Shown here: in pieces, positions 1,630 through 55,958 of the stretch | Layout of the letters: every line of letters begins with the position of its first letter | Numbering within the stretch: the stretch's first letter is position 1 | From: a virus | Direction: 5' to 3' (one strand) | Virus record (IMG/VR): IMGVR_UViG_3300014720_000044 | Coordinates: 1 to 55,958 of that record | DNA: 55,958 nucleotides | The notes under the pieces: generated by a model | The model's input: only the letters and a program-made list of their open reading frames with translations | What the model was told of the DNA's origin: nothing | Databases searched by the model: none | Made by a program: the position numbers and the translations under genes

Positions 1630-3660
1630 ATGGCAACAAGAATGCAACAGCGCAGAGGAACTGCAGCAACATGGACTGCTGCTGATCCAATACTTGCAGC
1701 AGGTGAAATCGGTTTTGAAACTGATACAAATAAATTTAAAATTGGCGATGGTAGTAATCGCTGGGTAACTCTTGCCTACTTCGTAGATGGCAACTCGATT
1801 ATCGATGGCGCCCCAGGTCTACTTAATACTCTTAACGAACTCGCTGCAGCCGTTAATGATGATCCTAACTTCTTTGCCACTGTTGCAACTAATTTATCAA
1901 ATCACGAAGCAGATACTACAAATGTACATGGTATTGCAGATACAGCCAATCTTGTTGTAACAAATACAAATCAAACATTAACCAATAAGACAATAAATTT
2001 ATCTAATAACTCTGTCAGTGGCACAGTTGCTCAATTTAATACTGCCCTTTCAGATGGCAATTTTGCTACCTTAGAAGGTACAGAAACATTAAGTAATAAA
2101 ACATTGAGCAGCCCAACAATTATTGTTGGCGCTACCACTGTTTCAGACACAGAAATTTCTTATCTTGATGGTGTAACATCATCGATACAGACTCAGTTAA
2201 ATGCAAAAGCAGGTCTAACTGGGGCTTCCTTTACTGGAACACTTACAAATACAGCGTCAATATCAACTACTGATACTACAGCGTCAACTTCTCCTACAAC
2301 AGGATCTATCGTTGCTGCTGGCGGTATTGGTGTAGGCGGAGACGCACACATAGATGGAGACGTAGTAATTGGCGGTAACTTTACTGTTAATGGTACAACA
2401 ACCACAGTAAGTACACAAGACTTAGTAATACAAGATCCTTTGATTTATGTTGGAGAAAGTAATCCTTCAAATATAGTTGATCTTGGTATTGTTGCTTCAT
2501 TCGATGATGGAACATATCAGCATACTGGTTTTGTTCGTGATTCATCTGCTGGAACATGGAAATTATTTAAGGGCGTAACTGATGAACCAACCTCAACAGT
2601 TAATTTTGCACAAGGCTCTTTAGATGATCTTGCTGTAGGAGGACTATCTGCTACTTCATTAACAGTAGGAGATGTTTCAAATACAGAAATAGGATATCTA
2701 AATGGAGTAACTTCTGCAATACAGACTCAGATCAATGGCAAGATTTCTGCTTCAAGTTCAGATACACTAACTAATAAAACAATAAACATGACAAATAATG
2801 GTTTGTCTGGAACTATAGAACAATTTAATGCAGCGCTATCTGATGAAGATTTTGCTACATTAAGTGGAACAGAAACTTTACAAAACAAAACAATATCTTA
2901 TGCAAATAATACTATAACTGTTCAGGTTACAAATGTTTCTGATCTAACTGCTAACGCATCAGAAATAAATGTATTAGATGGCATAACTGCTTCAACTGCA
3001 GAATTAAATATTTTAGATGGAGTTACTGCAAGTGCTTCAGAAATTAATGTATTAGATGGGGCAACGGTATCAGCAGCAGAACTAAATATTCTAGACGGTG
3101 CTACTGTATCAACTTCAGAAATAAATTATTTAGGTGGAGTCACTTCTTCTGTTCAAACTCAACTAGATTCTAAGTCACCGTCGGCAAGTCCAACATTTAC
3201 AGGAACTGTTGTTCTTCCATCCACAACATCAATCGGTGATGTTTCTTCAGATGAAATATCAGTTCTTAATGGGCTGACAGCATCAACAGCAGAACTAAAT
3301 ACCCTCGACGGATTGACAGCATCAACCGCAGAGTTAAATATTCTAGATGGATTGACAGCATCAACTGCTGATTTAAATATTCTTAATGGTGTAACTGCTT
3401 CTACTTCAGAAATTAATATTCTTGATGGGGTAACTGCATCAACAACAGAAATAAACTATGTTGTTGGAGTAACCTCTGCTATACAAACTCAAATGAATGC
3501 TAAGGCTCCGTTGGCAAGTCCGTCGCTAACTGGTACTCCAACCGCTCCAACTGCTTCACTTGGAACAAATACAACCCAAATTGCAACAACAGCATTTGTT
3601 GATGCTGCAATTGAGGCGCTGGCAAGTAGAAATCTAATACTTGACGGTGGCGGGGTATAA
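1630..3660 (+). CDS. Tail fibre with Mtd_N-like head and 13-residue repeats
   Basis: A 676-residue fibre. Residues 1-50 (MATRMQQRRGTA, AAGEIGFETDTNKFKIGDG) match the Mtd N-terminal fold used by many phages to fix receptor-binding proteins to the tail. A 60-residue segment shared with the next gene follows (LLNTLNELAAAVNDDPNFF, SNHEADTTNVHGIAD). In the middle lies a compact domain (GNFTVNGTTTTVSTQDLVIQ, then VDLGIVASFDDG and WKLFKGVTDEP), also shared with the next gene. It is followed by two blocks of five TASTAELNILDGV repeats, probably a triple-stranded beta stem. GAGGAG lies at 1615-1620. The likely role is a receptor-binding fibre; the receptor is unknown. Confidence 0.85.
   Translation: MATRMQQRRGTAATWTAADPILAAGEIGFETDTNKFKIGDGSNRWVTLAYFVDGNSIIDGAPGLLNTLNELAAAVNDDPNFFATVATNLSNHEADTTNVHGIADTANLVVTNTNQTLTNKTINLSNNSVSGTVAQFNTALSDGNFATLEGTETLSNKTLSSPTIIVGATTVSDTEISYLDGVTSSIQTQLNAKAGLTGASFTGTLTNTASISTTDTTASTSPTTGSIVAAGGIGVGGDAHIDGDVVIGGNFTVNGTTTTVSTQDLVIQDPLIYVGESNPSNIVDLGIVASFDDGTYQHTGFVRDSSAGTWKLFKGVTDEPTSTVNFAQGSLDDLAVGGLSATSLTVGDVSNTEIGYLNGVTSAIQTQINGKISASSSDTLTNKTINMTNNGLSGTIEQFNAALSDEDFATLSGTETLQNKTISYANNTITVQVTNVSDLTANASEINVLDGITASTAELNILDGVTASASEINVLDGATVSAAELNILDGATVSTSEINYLGGVTSSVQTQLDSKSPSASPTFTGTVVLPSTTSIGDVSSDEISVLNGLTASTAELNTLDGLTASTAELNILDGLTASTADLNILNGVTASTSEINILDGVTASTTEINYVVGVTSAIQTQMNAKAPLASPSLTGTPTAPTASLGTNTTQIATTAFVDAAIEALASRNLILDGGGV
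2947..3141 (+). repeat. Five 39-bp repeats, block 1 of fibre
   Basis: Five consecutive in-frame 39-bp units encode TA(S/N)(T/A)(S/A)E(L/I)N(I/V)LDG(V/I/A)-type 13-mers. The DNA has drifted at synonymous sites far more than the protein, so these are old, selected repeats and not a fresh expansion. Confidence 0.85.
3277..3471 (+). repeat. Five 39-bp repeats, block 2 of fibre
   Basis: A second run of five 13-residue units (TASTAELNTLDGL type) lies after a short spacer that contains an ATTAIQTQ-like cap. It ends with a VTSAIQTQ cap, as block 1 and the paralogous fibre do. Confidence 0.85.
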
Positions 3661-3703: not shown

Positions 3704-5212
3704 ATGGCAATTAGAATGCAGCAAAGAAGAGGAACCGCAGCACAGTGGACCTCTGGAAATCCAACATTAGCAGCAGGCGAAATTGGATTTGAAACAGATA
3801 CAGGTAAGTTTAAGGTTGGAAACGGATCATCGACCTGGACTCAACTAAACTACTTCGTAGATGCAAACTCTATACTAGACGGAGCGCCAGGCGCCCTTGA
3901 CACACTTAACGAACTTGCTGCTGCACTTAATGACGATCCTACCTTCTTTACTACTGTTGCAACCAATCTCTCCAACCATGAAGCAGATACCTCAAACGTG
4001 CACGGTATTGCAGATACAACAGTTCTAGTAACACTAAGTGGAACTCAAACTCTAACAGGCAAGACAATTTCTGCAGTAGATAATACTGTAACAATTAATG
4101 CTGCCGATATTACTGATGTCACTGCTTCTGCAGCAGAATTAAACATTTTGGATGGTGTTACAGCCTCTACAGCAGAAATTAATCTTCTTGATGGTGTTAC
4201 AGCAACCACTGCTGAAATTAATACTTTGACAGGAATTACTGCAAGCGTATCAGAACTAAATGTTCTAGACGGAGTTACAGCGTCTACTGCTGAACTAAAT
4301 CTACTAGACGGCGTTACAGCATCCACTGCTGAATTAAATATTCTTGACGGTGTTACCGCAACTGCAGCAGAATTAAATATTCTTGCTGGAGCAACACTTT
4401 CTACTACTGAATTAAATTATGTAGATGGTGTAACCTCTGCAATTCAGACACAATTAAACACATTAGATACAGATAAGGCAGATCTTGCATCACCAACATT
4501 TACTGGTACAACAACAACAGATGATCTTGTTGTGGATGGAGACTTAACTGTAAATGGTACAAACTTTGTAGCAAGTGCAACATCTATCACAATTGAAGAC
4601 AATATTGTTCAATTGGCACATGAAAATGCTGCTAATACAGTAGACCTTGGTATTGTTGTTGGTTATAATGAATCAAGCACAGCAAAACACGCAGGTATTG
4701 TAAGAGATGTTTCTGCTAATAAATGGAAACTTTTTAAAGGTGTGACAACAGAACCTTCTACAACAGTAGATTTTACACAGGGATCTCTTGACGACCTTGA
4801 GTTAGCAAATCTTGCTGCAACAGAAGTTGCTGCTACAACTCTTAAGTATGGAGCAGGCGCACTAAGCGTTGAAACAGAAATTGACAAGAAGACTCCAGAA
4901 CTTTATACATTTACTACAGATGCAACTACAGCAAGAACACTTGCTTTAGGTGATAAGTTTGGATCTCTTAAGTTTACATCTGCAAGCGCAACAACTTTAA
5001 CAGTTCCAGCAAATGCTGATGTAGCATTCCCAACAGGCTCTTATGTTGAACTTTATCAGTTTGGCGCAGGACAGGTAACTGTATCTCCAGCATCTGGTGT
5101 AACAGTCAGATCTACTGACTCTCAGGTTAAACTAAGAACTCAGTACTCTTCAGCGGTTTTGATTAAGGTTGACACCAACGAATGGCTGTTGACTGGTGAC
5201 TTGACTGCTTAA
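3704..5212 (+). CDS. Second tail fibre with Mtd_N-like head
   Basis: A 502-residue paralog of the gene at 1630. It has the same Mtd_N-like head (MAIRMQQRRGTAAQW, GEIGFETDTGKFKVGNGSS), the same SNHEADTSNVHGIAD linker, and eight 13-residue repeats at 4121-4432. It then carries the shared DGDLTVNGTNF, VDLGIVVGYNES and WKLFKGVTTEP domain. The C-terminal about 110 residues (from TTLKYGAGALSVE) are unique and beta-rich, probably the receptor-facing tip. Domain order differs from the paralog: here the repeats precede the shared domain. This points to module shuffling between the two fibres. The start is set by AAGGAGAG about eight bases upstream. Confidence 0.85.
   Translation: MAIRMQQRRGTAAQWTSGNPTLAAGEIGFETDTGKFKVGNGSSTWTQLNYFVDANSILDGAPGALDTLNELAAALNDDPTFFTTVATNLSNHEADTSNVHGIADTTVLVTLSGTQTLTGKTISAVDNTVTINAADITDVTASAAELNILDGVTASTAEINLLDGVTATTAEINTLTGITASVSELNVLDGVTASTAELNLLDGVTASTAELNILDGVTATAAELNILAGATLSTTELNYVDGVTSAIQTQLNTLDTDKADLASPTFTGTTTTDDLVVDGDLTVNGTNFVASATSITIEDNIVQLAHENAANTVDLGIVVGYNESSTAKHAGIVRDVSANKWKLFKGVTTEPSTTVDFTQGSLDDLELANLAATEVAATTLKYGAGALSVETEIDKKTPELYTFTTDATTARTLALGDKFGSLKFTSASATTLTVPANADVAFPTGSYVELYQFGAGQVTVSPASGVTVRSTDSQVKLRTQYSSAVLIKVDTNEWLLTGDLTA
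4121..4432 (+). repeat. Eight 39-bp repeats in second fibre
   Basis: Eight consecutive 39-bp units each encode a 13-mer of the TASTAELNILDGV type. Codons differ widely between units while the Glu-(Leu/Ile)-Asn and Asp-Gly positions are nearly invariant. The run ends in TSAIQTQL, the same cap as in the neighbouring fibre. Confidence 0.88.
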
Positions 5213-5237: not shown

Positions 5238-7313
5238 ATGTCAAAGAAGATTGCGGGTAAGTCGTTTAAAGTAGTGTCACGCTTAAAGGCTTTGGTTAGT
5301 GTTATTGAAGGTTTTAACAGAGCAAATGCCGCCGACTCCGCAGTTGCTGGATCAGGATTAGGTAAAACTGATTCAGGTGCCACATGGAACGTATTTAGAG
5401 GATCCTGGGGTATTTCAAGCAATAAGGCTTCATCTTCTACATCGCATTCTTCATATCCATTAGCAACACTTAATTTTTCTAAGGAAGATGTAACTATAAC
5501 TGCAAAAGGCGTAGGTCCTGGCGTAGGAACTGCCTTCTGGGTAACAGATTCTGATAACTGGTGGGGAACATATGTAGACACTACAAATGTCTGCTCTGCT
5601 TATGGCACTCAGGCAAATACATACGGCGTTGTAGGTTCAACATGTAATGCATACGGAACTCAAGCAAATACTTACGGTGTTGTAGGATCAACTTGTAATG
5701 CATATGGAACTCAAGTAAATGCCTATGGCGTTGTAGGGTCAACTTGTAATACTTATGGAACAAAGGTTAATGCATATGGAACTGTCTGTAATGCTACTAG
5801 CACAAACTATGCAACTGCAATAGGTACATATGCAACTCAATGTAATGCAACATCAACAAATTATGCAACACAGGCTAATGCTTATGGAACTCAATGTAAC
5901 GCTTATACTTCAAATTACGGATGTGTAACTTACGCAACTCAGCAAGTAGGAAATACCTGTAACTCTTCTAGCCCAAACTATGGATGTAGTACATACGGAA
6001 CTCAGTTAGCAAATTATACCTGTAATGCTTTTAGTACTAACTATGGCACTAAAATAAATGCTTATGGAGCCACAGGAAGTACTTGTAATACATATTCATC
6101 TTCTTCTGGAGCAAACTATTCTTGTAAGACGTTTGCCACCAACTATTCCACATTTTGTGCTGCTTACGGCGGTTTGTCATATTCTTGTAACTCATATAAT
6201 TATACTTCAAGTGCAGGATCATCCTGTCAGGCTTTTTCATCTAGTTCTAATACAAACTATACATGTAACACATATGGAACTGGCTATACATGTAATTCTT
6301 ATAACAGTTTTTATTATAACTGTATAGCATATTCTAAGAACACAAACTGTAACGCTTATGGAAGTAGCAAGAGCACTAACTATAGTTGCAATGCGTATAC
6401 AGCGTTTACAACATATAGCCTAGGAAACTGTAAATCTTTCAGTTCATCTCCTATATGTCAAGCCTATGGAAATAGTGCAAGCACAAATTGTAATGCATAT
6501 TCTTCAAGCGCATTCACTACTTATACTTGTAACGCATATACGACAAACTTTGGTGCTACTGCATGGGGAACTCAAGCAACAGGAAGCACATGTAATTCTT
6601 CTAGTGCAAATTATGGACAGGTCTGTAATGCTTATGCTGTATCTGGTTATACCTGTAACGCTTCAAGTGCCAATTACGGAACTAATTGTAGCGCCAATGG
6701 TGTAGTAGGAAGTACATGTAACGCTTATGGAACAAAGGTTAATGCTTATGGAACTATAATTGCTGGATATACATGCAATACATTTGGAACTGTGGTTGCT
6801 AATTATGTAACAAATGTTGCTGGATATACATGTAACACATATGGCACACAGGCTAATGCTTATGGAACTCAATGTAACGCTTATACTTCAAATTACGGAG
6901 CAACTACATATGGAAATGTATGCAATACTTATACATCAAACTATGGACCTACTGCATATGGATATGTCTGCAATACTTATACATCAAACTATGGACCTAC
7001 TGCATACGGATATGTATGTAACACATATGCCAATAGCGACAGCGTTAAGGTTATAAAGAGTATTGCAGGAACAGTAAATACTGTTGCAAACTTCTCCTTT
7101 AATGCAGCGGTTCAGGCAGTAAAAACAATACTATCAGGAAATACAATCACTGTTCGTGGATATTCTAATGCAAATGCAACCACTCAAATTGGGTCAGATC
7201 AGTCTACCTCGTCTACTGGAGCCACAAAGGCCAAGAGTCATGGTATACTTAAAGGAGCAGTAACTTATAGCCCTGCTGCTACCAACGTAATTGACCAGTT
7301 TGAGGTGGAATAG
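5238..7313 (+). CDS. Tail jelly-roll protein with large cysteine-rich insert
   Basis: A 691-residue protein built as a sandwich. Residues 1-118 (GFNRANAADS, LGKTDSGATWNVFRGSW, AFWVTDSDNWWGTYV) look like the first half of a concanavalin or LamG-like jelly-roll known from phage tail proteins. Residues 119-594 are a low-complexity insert with 36 Cys, nearly all followed by Asn, in motifs such as TCNAYGT and YTSNYG. Residues 595-691 (ITVRGYSN, IGSDQS, AKSHGILKG, IDQFEVE) look like the second half of the jelly-roll. The flanking halves contain no Cys. The insert leaves the fold right after the NWWGTYV strand, as if placed in a surface loop. The likely role is a virion-surface adhesin or fibre tip. 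The start has AAGGAG at about 5228. Confidence 0.75.
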   Translation: MSKKIAGKSFKVVSRLKALVSVIEGFNRANAADSAVAGSGLGKTDSGATWNVFRGSWGISSNKASSSTSHSSYPLATLNFSKEDVTITAKGVGPGVGTAFWVTDSDNWWGTYVDTTNVCSAYGTQANTYGVVGSTCNAYGTQANTYGVVGSTCNAYGTQVNAYGVVGSTCNTYGTKVNAYGTVCNATSTNYATAIGTYATQCNATSTNYATQANAYGTQCNAYTSNYGCVTYATQQVGNTCNSSSPNYGCSTYGTQLANYTCNAFSTNYGTKINAYGATGSTCNTYSSSSGANYSCKTFATNYSTFCAAYGGLSYSCNSYNYTSSAGSSCQAFSSSSNTNYTCNTYGTGYTCNSYNSFYYNCIAYSKNTNCNAYGSSKSTNYSCNAYTAFTTYSLGNCKSFSSSPICQAYGNSASTNCNAYSSSAFTTYTCNAYTTNFGATAWGTQATGSTCNSSSANYGQVCNAYAVSGYTCNASSANYGTNCSANGVVGSTCNAYGTKVNAYGTIIAGYTCNTFGTVVANYVTNVAGYTCNTYGTQANAYGTQCNAYTSNYGATTYGNVCNTYTSNYGPTAYGYVCNTYTSNYGPTAYGYVCNTYANSDSVKVIKSIAGTVNTVANFSFNAAVQAVKTILSGNTITVRGYSNANATTQIGSDQSTSSTGATKAKSHGILKGAVTYSPAATNVIDQFEVE
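5592..7019 (+). repeat. Cys-Asn-rich degenerate repeats
   Basis: About 476 codons hold 36 Cys at irregular spacings of roughly 7-21 residues. Recurring blocks include STCNAYGTQ(A/V)N(T/A)YGVVG near the start and NTYTSNYGPTAYGYVC, which occurs twice almost identically near the end. The amino-acid palette is nearly confined to Cys, Asn, Thr, Ser, Tyr, Gly, Ala and Val, with very few charged residues. This looks like a disulphide-laddered or beta-solenoid surface structure. Confidence 0.8.
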
Positions 7314-7768
7314 TGAGTGATTATAAAGATAAAAGTCTCAAAGATTTTGAGAAAGAGTTTAAATCAGAAAAGCGTTATCGCTATTTATCAAAAATAAAAA
7401 ATGCAATAAATATTTTCCCACCATCTGTACCAAAAAATAATAAAGTAATGGATGGCCCAGATATCTCTAGTATTACTGAGCATATTGCATTTGTAATAGA
7501 TGATGAGATTGTTGAAATTATGCATTGCCAGCCAAAGTTGGCAGCAATTCTTTTGAGCAGTCCAACTATTGTAAAAATAGAAGATGGCAAATTTGCTAAA
7601 CCAGGATGGCAATATAAAGATGGAAAAATAATAAACCCTGCTGGCCAAGAGTCTGAAAATGTGCAACAACAAGAAAGAGATTATTTGCCAACATTTAAAG
7701 AATATTTATTAAATCAAGGAAGTCCAAAACTTTTAACATTTAAAGAATATATAGAAAGTATGAAATAA
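7313..7768 (+). CDS. Hypothetical fibre-module protein
   Basis: A 151-residue protein starting at GTG (7313), which overlaps the previous stop by one base (TAGTG), a sign of coupled translation. Residues 1-40 are highly charged. The centre (HIAFVIDDEIVEIMHCQPKLAAILLSSP) followed by GWQYKDGKIINP resembles small phage proteins that sit beside tail fibres and end in a 'GW.Y.DG' unit. The tail (FKEYLLNQG, FKEYIESMK) repeats an FKEY motif. No enzyme signature is seen. A fibre-assembly or chaperone role is only suggested by location. Confidence 0.6.
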   Translation: MSDYKDKSLKDFEKEFKSEKRYRYLSKIKNAINIFPPSVPKNNKVMDGPDISSITEHIAFVIDDEIVEIMHCQPKLAAILLSSPTIVKIEDGKFAKPGWQYKDGKIINPAGQESENVQQQERDYLPTFKEYLLNQGSPKLLTFKEYIESMK

Positions 7769-7769
7769 C

Positions 7770-8531
7770 ATGAAAAGAATATCATTTAATTTACGTCCTG
7801 AAGACAGTATTCTAGATATCCTGCCACCTGAGCCAGGAACTCAGTTTATTCCACAATGGTACAGAGATGGTGAAAAGTATATAGATAGAGAAACTGGTTT
7901 AAAAAATCCCAAAGATCCCTCAAAAAGAGCAGGGGGTATGAAGTCCTGCGTTCCATTTCTCGATGCTATGATTTCTGGATATATACAACAACTATCTGTT
8001 GCTATTAGAATAACCAAGAATAACGGAACAGATCCTGTTGAATGGGAATATGTAGAAAAAGACAAAGACGGAAATTATAATAATCTTAATATAGAGTTTG
8101 GCATTATTAATGAAAGAGATGGAGATTTAGGAGAAACAATTCCTAGACCTTTTGGATATTCTCATAATCATTTGGCATTTACTGGTAAGTGGGGATGGCA
8201 AGTTCCTAAAGGATGGAGCGTTTTGGTTACTCACCCATTAAACAGATTTGATTTACCCTTTACAACAATGAGCGGAATAATGGAAAGTGACAAGTTTATG
8301 TCTGCTGGTAATGTACCATTTTTCATTCAAAAAGATTTTACTGGTGTAATAGAAAAGGGCACTCCTTTATTTCAGATAATTCCAATAAAAAGGGCAAAAT
8401 GGCTTGGATATGTAAAAAGAAAAATAGTTGATGAAAAGGGCTTATTCTTTTCTAATAATGCAAGAGCAGTTCCTTATGGATTTTATAGAGACAAGATGTG
8501 GGAGAAAAAAGTATATGATATGGAAAAATAA
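7770..8531 (+). CDS. Unknown protein, paralog A of tandem pair
   Basis: A 253-residue protein of a family I cannot name. Features shared with the next gene are an early 'PQWYRDG/PEWYRKL' segment, a 'CVPFLDAMISGY' motif near residue 70, and a C-terminal half with a 'P.G(W/Y)S....PLN.F..PF.T..G' motif. This is followed by 'PFFIQKDFTGVIEKGTPLFQIIPIKR.W'. The conserved 'G(V/L)I..GTP..QIIP.KR' block suggests a compact beta fold. No signal peptide or membrane segment is seen. The Shine-Dalgarno site is weak (AGAAAG), so translation may depend on the gene two bases upstream. It lies between fibre genes and the ribonucleotide reductase. Confidence 0.6.
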   Translation: MKRISFNLRPEDSILDILPPEPGTQFIPQWYRDGEKYIDRETGLKNPKDPSKRAGGMKSCVPFLDAMISGYIQQLSVAIRITKNNGTDPVEWEYVEKDKDGNYNNLNIEFGIINERDGDLGETIPRPFGYSHNHLAFTGKWGWQVPKGWSVLVTHPLNRFDLPFTTMSGIMESDKFMSAGNVPFFIQKDFTGVIEKGTPLFQIIPIKRAKWLGYVKRKIVDEKGLFFSNNARAVPYGFYRDKMWEKKVYDMEK

Positions 8532-9321
8532 GATACAAAAAAGAGCAAATACTAGAACTGCTTCTTCAGAAGGAGTAATAGAATTTATAAATTTAGATAG
8601 GGTTGTAGAAGGTGAAATGTCTGGCAAACCAGACTATATTACACCAGCAAAGATAACTTTGCCAGAGTGGTATAGAAAACTTCCTATTACAGATAAATTA
8701 TTTGAAAAAGATAAGATTGAAGATCTTACTGCAAAAAGATGTATACCTATATTAGATGCCATGACTACTGGCTATCATATGGTAACTACTTCAGATTATT
8801 ATTTTAATTATGATAAAGAAAAAGAAGAGGGTAGTTTTTCTGGCAGGGAAGATATAATTTCTCAAAAGCCAATAAGTATGCATCCTCTATCTCAATTATC
8901 TACTGCAAAACTATCTCCAGAGTTTATTGAATATGCTTATAAATGGGGAAACACATGGACAATAAAGACTCCTCCAGGATATAGTTGCATTTTTACAAAT
9001 CCTCTTAATGGATTTGAAAGTCCATTTTATACTCTCGATGGCGTAGTCGATACTGATACTTATTTTCAGCCAATCTTATTCCCGTTTTTAATGAAGAAGG
9101 GATTTGAAGGACTTATTCCAGCAGGAACTCCAATAGTCCAGATAATACCTTTTAAGAGAGATGACTGGACTATGAAAATTAATAATAATTTTTCTCAAGA
9201 TTTATTTGATACATACTCTTCAGAAAAGAATTTATACGAAAGTCAAAGATACGATAAAGAAAAGAAACCACTTGGCGGTATGTATAAAAGAGATTATCGT
9301 GTCAAAAAGAAGTATATTTAA
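8515..9321 (+). CDS. Unknown protein, paralog B of tandem pair
   Basis: A 268-residue paralog of the upstream gene. I place the start at the ATG at 8515 because GGGAG at 8500-8504 lies ten bases upstream and similarity to the paralog begins soon after; an in-frame ATG at 8428 would overlap the upstream gene by 104 bases. The shared blocks are CIPILDAMTTGY, GYSCIFTNPLNGFESPFYTLDGVVDTD and PFLMKKGFEGLIPAGTPIVQIIPFKRDDW. The C-terminus is basic (YKRDYRVKKKYI). The stretches between conserved blocks have diverged strongly, so the duplication is old. Function is unknown. Confidence 0.6.
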   Translation: MIWKNKIQKRANTRTASSEGVIEFINLDRVVEGEMSGKPDYITPAKITLPEWYRKLPITDKLFEKDKIEDLTAKRCIPILDAMTTGYHMVTTSDYYFNYDKEKEEGSFSGREDIISQKPISMHPLSQLSTAKLSPEFIEYAYKWGNTWTIKTPPGYSCIFTNPLNGFESPFYTLDGVVDTDTYFQPILFPFLMKKGFEGLIPAGTPIVQIIPFKRDDWTMKINNNFSQDLFDTYSSEKNLYESQRYDKEKKPLGGMYKRDYRVKKKYI

Positions 9322-55002: not shown

Positions 55003-55958
55003 ATGAAGTCATTTAAGAAAATCGCTCTAGCAATGGTTGCAGCCATGGCTATGGGCACATTAGTGTCAACACCTGCAAGTGCTAACACATTATCAGTAGT
55101 AGCAACTACATGGAATGCTGCTAAGGTTGGTGGCGCTGGGTACGACACACCTACAACAACTGGAACAACTACGGCGACTGCAATTGCTCGTCCAGCACCA
55201 GAAGACAACAAGATTGATAACGTAGATGTTATTCGTTTTGTTGCAACAGTTAACGCTGGAACTTCTGTTAGTGCAAGTGCAACAAATGCTACAATCGTTT
55301 CAGCACTACACTCAGACGCTTCTCCAGTATCTGCATTGTCAGGATCTTCATCTTTGACAGTTGCTACTGGAACAGGAACAGAGGCTGTATTTTTTGTATA
55401 CACAAAGACTACTGCAGTTGGAACAATTGTTTTGACAAATGGACCAACAACTCTTACATATTATATACAAGGTACTGTTGGTAAGATTAATAATCTTGCA
55501 GTTTCTGCTCCAGCATCTGCTTCTGCAGGAACTAAAGCAGATATTGTTGTAACCGCAACAGACGTATTCGGAAATAAGGTTTCTGGTAAGTCTATTACTG
55601 GTGCAGTATTCGCTGGACTTGGAACACTTGATTCCACAACAGCAACAACTGGAACAACACTGTCAGATTTTGGAACAGCAACCTTTAAGGTTACTTTGCC
55701 AACAACTGGCACACGTTCGCTGATTACATTTGCACCAACAACATCAACAGATGCAACATCTGCAGATGTAACTGGTCTACCTGCTCGTGTTCTTGCACCA
55801 TTTGCAGAAATTGCAGTTCGTGATCTTGTTTCAGAACTTGCTGCTGAGAAGGCTGCTCGTGCTGCTGATAAGGTAACTGCAGACGCTGCACTTGCTGCTG
55901 AGAAGGCTGCTCGTGCTGCTGATAAGGTAACTGCAGACGCTGCACTTGCTGCTGAGAA
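55003..55958 (+). CDS. Secreted S-layer-like surface protein, 3' end missing
   Basis: An open frame of 318 codons running off the window, with AAGGAG at 54987-54992. It begins MKSFKKIALAMVAAMAMG and has a basic, hydrophobic, then Ala-x-Ala (PASA) signal peptide cut near residue 27. A Thr/Ala/Gly/Val-rich region follows. Around residues 165-190 a bacterial Ig-like (Big/invasin) block (DIVVTATDVFGNKVSGKSITG) is visible. The C-terminus passes into 18-residue Ala/Glu/Lys repeats. This is the make-up of bacterial envelope or S-layer proteins rather than virion proteins. It may be a captured host gene acting on the infected cell's surface, or a fibre that travels by Sec; the latter is less likely. 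Confidence 0.75.
   Translation, partial: MKSFKKIALAMVAAMAMGTLVSTPASANTLSVVATTWNAAKVGGAGYDTPTTTGTTTATAIARPAPEDNKIDNVDVIRFVATVNAGTSVSASATNATIVSALHSDASPVSALSGSSSLTVATGTGTEAVFFVYTKTTAVGTIVLTNGPTTLTYYIQGTVGKINNLAVSAPASASAGTKADIVVTATDVFGNKVSGKSITGAVFAGLGTLDSTTATTGTTLSDFGTATFKVTLPTTGTRSLITFAPTTSTDATSADVTGLPARVLAPFAEIAVRDLVSELAAEKAARAADKVTADAALAAEKAARAADKVTADAALAAE
55837..55958 (+). repeat. Perfect 54-bp tandem repeats, cut by window end
   Basis: Two identical 54-bp units (55837-55890, 55891-55944) and the start of a third. Each encodes 18 residues, LAAEKAARAADKVTADAA, a probable alpha-helical stalk. Exact nucleotide identity shows recent expansion or ongoing homogenisation, unlike the drifted fibre repeats. 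Confidence 0.9.

Follow-up and report, generated by a model that had tools for sequence, protein, structure and literature searches.

A candidate giant hairpin with mirror-symmetric cysteines in a tail protein of an uncultured phage

The tail protein gene at positions 5238 to 7313 (+ strand) of the stretch of viral DNA analysed here, a 55,958-base virus record with a GC content of 0.37 (the window), raises the question of what is built from several hundred cysteine-rich residues set into a domain that is itself free of cysteine. The 691-aa product, assigned from its ORF, composition and predicted fold as a jelly-roll carrying a proposed hairpin insert, consists of an N-terminal half (aa 1-118; 5238 to 5591, +), the insert (aa 119-594; 5592 to 7019, +) and a C-terminal half (aa 595-691; 7020 to 7310, +). 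A sequence-only reading had described a 476-residue insert with 36 Cys at 5592-7019 between flanks lacking Cys, and these values proved exact, as both flanks contain 0 Cys. The 36 Cys make up 7.6% of the insert; the remainder is dominated by T (78), Y (64), N (64), S (59), A (56) and G (50), and seven K are the only charged residues, D, E, R and H being absent, in line with the earlier description of a hardly charged segment rich in Tyr, Ser, Thr and Gly. Asn directly follows 26 of the 36 Cys (72%), so that the reading of Asn after nearly all Cys holds for most of them only. Comparison of close relatives yielded dN values well below dS within the insert. In addition, of seven clusters of relatives that could be used, five showed invariant Cys columns and the remaining two reached 82% and 80% (the L103 group was left out), while the non-Cys columns of the insert were more variable than the flanks. 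Together, this indicates that the insert is real coding sequence.

The window encodes a portal, a prohead protease, a capsid protein with 43% identity to the capsid protein of Streptomyces phages, and a 2756-aa tape measure, and it also codes for a class II ribonucleotide reductase, DNA polymerase III alpha, a DnaB helicase, a primase and RecA. No Cys occurs in the portal, the protease, the major capsid protein or the tape measure, and the virion proteins are otherwise nearly Cys-free; the Cys content of the insert therefore does not reflect the composition of the genome in general. The surroundings of the tail protein gene were found to be syntenic across 72 family loci, some of which stop short of the respective gene positions: relatives of the upstream tail-fibre gene with an Mtd_N domain (3704 to 5212, +) were present in 57 of the 72, of the small gene directly downstream (7313 to 7768, +) in 53, and of the subsequent phrog_7084 gene (7770 to 8531, +) and DUF6065-like gene (8428 to 9321, +; match below the Pfam cut-off) in 62 each. 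In the two upstream Mtd_N tail-fibre genes, a 39-bp unit (about ASTAELNILDGVT) forms arrays at 2945-3473 and 4127-4417, which differ in copy number. A perfect 54-bp tandem repeat is located at 55836-55958, within an open ORF at the contig's right end, where the assembly may have ended. No reverse transcriptase as in a diversity-generating retroelement was identified among the subset of window ORFs scanned on this possibly incomplete contig.

AlphaFold2 was run on the window protein together with 11 relatives, and on the relative L139, a short family member with 18 Cys. In the window protein the flanks were resolved only in part, with strands at residues 107-120 and 596-609 bracketing the insert, so that the last strand of the N-terminal half runs into the insert and the first strand of the C-terminal half leaves it. 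The L139 flanks were modelled with confidence (blocks up to pLDDT 93). Structural comparison by VIA-align superposed residues 51-691 of the window model on a single jelly-roll domain, with the receptor-binding domain of TM4 gp23 at Z 11.1 and Douge gp20 at Z 10.9. The L139 model matched residues 683-878 of Douge gp20 with Z 18.0 (rmsd 3.0, 174 residues aligned), followed by a CBM66 (Z 16.8) and TM4 gp23 (Z 16.3). The best matches among viral models were uncharacterised and unannotated proteins of uncultured phages, followed by minor tail and tail-fibre proteins of actinobacteriophages. In the models, both flanks together thus form one ConA/CBM-type jelly-roll, nearest to the C-terminal domain of the Douge central fibre. 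This is what had been proposed earlier; the existence of a family relative without any insert (L007) agrees with it, and the prediction did not yield two independent domains. The insert itself had a pLDDT of about 30 in both models, in which only its entering and leaving strands were predicted, and this counts against the ribbon proposed below.

Relatives were sought in IMG/VR by flank patterns, without selection on Cys number, which returned 134 loci with one alignment (80 kept) and 118 with another. Among these were 73 distinct complete insert-bearing proteins, all with the insert in the same loop, which were grouped into 34 insert clusters at 15% shared 4-mers; the clusters share ancestry and a base motif and are hence not fully independent. 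Insert sequence differed freely from cluster to cluster, with lengths from about 70 to 476 aa, bearing out the idea of an expandable insert, and with 6 to 46 Cys. The number of Cys was even in all 73 distinct members and all 34 clusters. One contig (UViG_3300046787_000129) carries two hairpin-insert genes, L081 and L127, about 5.5 kb apart, each with 16 Cys in the same spacing pattern. Two further loci, L089 and L094, with the gene near position 5001, have an early stop inside the insert after 10 Cys and few residues past the last of them; they represent either a broken gene or an assembly collapse at repeats and were excluded from the family statistics. Beyond IMG/VR, tblastn with the whole protein, each flank and four relatives gave no match in 50,697 GenBank phages, a search in which BLAST masks low-complexity sequence, and two scans of 84,980 bacterial and archaeal genomes (one per species) revealed no relative. 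No Pfam or PHROGs family scored above cut-off for the tail protein, and a DUF3659 match (E 0.014) was discounted as it falls within repeats. The PDB sequence search gave no convincing relative, and no phage protein with a disulphide ladder was found in the open-access literature.

The sequence-only reading had missed the mirror-image arrangement of the Cys around a central tip. Read from the N end, the Cys spacings of the window insert are 17,17,17,14,18,18,9,12,9,12,21,13,11,10,13,13,9; read from the C end, they are 16,16,16,14,19,19,10,11,10,11,21,13,11,9,14,13,9, with a central spacing of 10. Shuffling these spacings 5000 times never gave an order as symmetric (permutation p 0.0002). The two arms stay in register with an offset of 0-3 over 233 residues (p 0.0002), the mean drift being 0.53 compared to 6.6 in shuffles. 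The arrangement would divide the insert into an ascending arm with Cys 1-18 (5592 to 6293, +), a descending arm with Cys 19-36 (6321 to 7019, +) and a proposed hairpin tip, C352-NSYNSFYYN-C362 (6291 to 6323, +), directly after which Lys-bearing segments occur (CIAYSKNTNCNAYGSSKSTNYSC). The proposed nested pairs are, from the base, C119-C594, C136-C578, C153-C562, C170-C546, C184-C532, C202-C513, C220-C494, C229-C484 and C241-C473, followed by the inner pairs C250-C463, C262-C452, C283-C431, C296-C418, C307-C407, C317-C398, C330-C384, C343-C371 and C352-C362.

Mirror symmetry was not restricted to the window. Over the 34 clusters, which are related by descent, the mirror statistic reached a combined Fisher value of 2e-31, while the same test in unmirrored order gave 0.024, and 23 of the 34 clusters were individually below p 0.05. 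As the statistic based on spacing differences failed for L093 despite its regular register, a second statistic based on the register was added. Where Cys occur as closely spaced doublets, CxC was found opposite CxxC across the arms 38 times (expected 8.3; maximum of 17 in 2000 shuffles), whereas like opposite like occurred five times (expected 6.9). The symmetry was weak in clusters L091, L050, L104 and L168, and the inner parts of L015 and L017 were asymmetric and knot-like, suggesting that some members may consist of a stalk and a knob. The L062/L103 group has short inserts with 8 Cys and two CPSGGxLSGxxC motifs, which possibly pair locally, unlike the long ladders.

Facing segments also varied together. 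The likeness of rungs within one arm predicted the likeness of the facing segments only in mirrored register, both in the window (r 0.68, p 0.0005) and in the family (Fisher 1e-17 over 29 clusters), and also against the stricter control of shifted and reversed registers, which keeps local similarity (4e-5). In L055, SPSYP segments of the ascending arm lie opposite GGYYYA-type segments, and in L057 rungs 6 and 7 (SPSYP/GGYYYA) are exchanged between the arms relative to L055 with the facing relation kept. Within the window, three 17-residue repeats are opposite three 16-residue repeats, two 18s opposite two 19s, and a doubled 9+12 opposite a doubled 10+11. At the DNA level, a 51-bp tandem array encodes ascending-arm rungs 1-3 (5597 to 5761, +), and its mirror partner, a 48-bp array, descending-arm rungs 1-3 (6880 to 7018, +); a 57-bp array (6713 to 6868, +) encodes the 19-residue segments of descending-arm rungs 5-6 opposite the two 18-residue ascending segments. 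The 18-residue string TQANAYGTQCNAYTSNYG is present in both arms of the window insert, which suggests an exchange of modules between them. Inverted DNA repeats were considered as the origin of the symmetry and rejected by reasoning, as the reverse complement turns the Cys codons TGT and TGC into Thr and Ala codons. A mirror repeat of DNA is, to our knowledge, no known duplication product. With neither route available, the symmetry is most simply explained by selection for a paired structure.

The position of the tip was followed through proteins of differing Cys number. Three unrelated tip motifs were traced in this way, and each was positioned at the Cys midpoint. CGLxxAQA divides the Cys 12|12 in L013 and 23|23 in L014, the 22 extra Cys of L014 being split 11 + 11 around the tip common to both. 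PP(F/Y)GF occurs at 8|8, 11|11 and 12|12, with L024 (13|11) as the sole exception. NK(T/S) occurs at 7|7, 8|8, 11|11, 12|12 and 13|13 and is the weakest series, as the pattern is short and is found off-centre in some proteins as NGS. Across the family, 5.5% of the residues in the sixth tenth of the insert are Lys or Arg, compared to 0.1-0.5% near the base, and 49 of the 92 K/R are located in the central fifth.

An antiparallel two-stranded ribbon with cross-strand Cys pairs calls for nested arms that covary and are equally long, for an even Cys count and for a tip at the centre, as observed here. We therefore consider it likely that the insert is a giant antiparallel hairpin with nested cross-strand Cys pairs, forming a stalk that carries a basic tip toward the host. 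A single long hairpin would emerge from one loop of the tail jelly-roll, which is of the carbohydrate-binding type. With the jelly-roll as their base, the two arms would lie alongside each other as far as a tip exactly halfway along the insert. Every ascending-arm Cys would have one partner opposite it on the descending arm, which makes 18 nested pairs (3 to 23 in relatives), and these, most simply as disulphide rungs, would staple a presumably beta-like ribbon whose residues are polar and mostly without charge. Such a stalk would keep the tip, family-wide the only K/R-rich part, off the virion to contact the host surface, and its reach would be set by gain or loss of rungs, one Cys per arm; fully extended, the 233 residues of each arm would span no more than about 75 nm. 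A stalk that contacts a receptor, which the tip itself may bind, is suggested by the carrier fold, the basic tip, the tail locus and the divergence of the inserts.

Disulphides do not readily form in the cytoplasm, which counts against such rungs; from the Cys pattern we nonetheless infer that disulphides link the facing Cys, and that oxidation probably takes place in oxic water once the cell has lysed. The sequence-only reading had allowed for either oxidation after lysis or binding of metal or ligand. A hairpin in which the facing Cys instead bind Zn or Fe-S, with CxC/CxxC making an intrachain site of four Cys and single rungs pairing with those of neighbouring chains of a trimer or dimer, would be easier to form in a reducing cytoplasm, would account for the 38 cases of CxC opposite CxxC and would have a parallel in the iron along the down-and-back needle of T4 gp37. 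The number of Cys is, however, 4k+2 in 17 of the 34 clusters, so that the unit is a pair and not the quartet of a Cys4 zinc or iron-sulphur site, and the window insert has single rungs only, with no CxC/CxxC rung and no His, Asp or Glu. This favours disulphides, and metal binding appears unlikely to us.

Two further explanations dispense with the hairpin. The insert could be a folded knob, or several small disulphide knots in a row, with Cys that pair locally and a symmetry arising from repeats only, as might be read from the inner regions of L017 and L015 and from the CPSGGxLSGxxC motifs of the L062/L103 group, which could each close locally. Yet shuffling the same spacings does not give the symmetry and the direct order does not fit, the tips stay central as the Cys number changes, and facing rungs covary, which leaves this explanation about as unlikely. 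An adhesive surface as proposed by the sequence-only reading, taken as a low-complexity coat in which Cys, Tyr and Asn mediate unspecific sticking with no defined pairing, fits the composition of the insert and the wide length differences among relatives; a disordered coat would have no reason to keep the Cys number even in 73 of 73 members or to maintain a mirror register, and we regard it as highly improbable. A mirror ladder with a central tip rather indicates a stalk-like hairpin, with disulphides favoured over metal sites.

In theta-defensins and beta-hairpin antimicrobial peptides, a two-stranded ribbon is crossed by one disulphide after another. Here, too, the Cys positions in the sequence are those of nested pairs across two antiparallel strands; those peptides have about 18 residues and 2-3 rungs and are secreted, whereas here up to 23 Cys pairs would occur in a virion protein. 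The T4 gp37 needle is a six-stranded trimer with HxH iron sites, a motif that the His-free window insert lacks. In this elongated, antiparallel receptor-binding needle (PMC7291167), the chain runs out to the tip and back, as in the proposed hairpin. Bovine ultralong CDR H3 loops form a Cys-bearing, length-variable two-stranded ribbon from one loop of a beta-sandwich that presents a knob (PMC5994613). They would work like the proposed hairpin without being homologous, but reach up to about 70 residues, with disulphides in the knob and somatic diversity, compared to inherited diversity and 36 Cys that would line a stalk in mirrored order here; nor is the carrier an immunoglobulin V domain, as it resembles ConA/CBM jelly-rolls and sits in a phage tail locus. 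With respect to the carrier, the C-terminal domain of Douge gp20 (8zdp) and the receptor-binding domain of TM4 gp23 (9n6a) have the same jelly-roll fold as the window and L139 flanks, and both belong to siphovirus tail-tip proteins, as proposed here. In Douge, this domain is part of the trimeric central fibre, and a CFP-tip-CTD construct binds surface glycans of the mycobacterial host (PMC13033339). The Douge domain comprises about 190 residues at the end of an 878-residue fibre protein and has no hundred-residue Cys insert (identity 8-17%), whereas here jelly-roll and insert make up nearly the whole protein. The jelly-roll carrier is of a known kind, and the novelty would lie in the architecture of the insert as read from sequence.

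That dozens of otherwise dissimilar loops follow a common mirror rule points to an undescribed way to build a host-binding fibre. Whether this amounts to a new kind of fibre, in which one polypeptide forms a two-stranded disulphide-runged ribbon that is zipped after virion release, bears a basic receptor-binding tip and evolves to greater length through matched rung modules that are inserted, swapped or flipped on the two arms alike, we consider evenly balanced. If true, the sequence alone would encode a double-stranded protein ladder whose strands are obliged to stay matched, and a Cys segment gained on one arm would be answered on the other, an unusual intramolecular coevolution that can be read by eye. 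Two testable questions would follow, namely by what route the matched arms grow in step and how a virion built in a reducing cytoplasm acquires tens of disulphides, and a length-tunable stapled ribbon would be of interest as a scaffold. For the viruses themselves, it would represent a new attachment architecture, found in uncultured phages.
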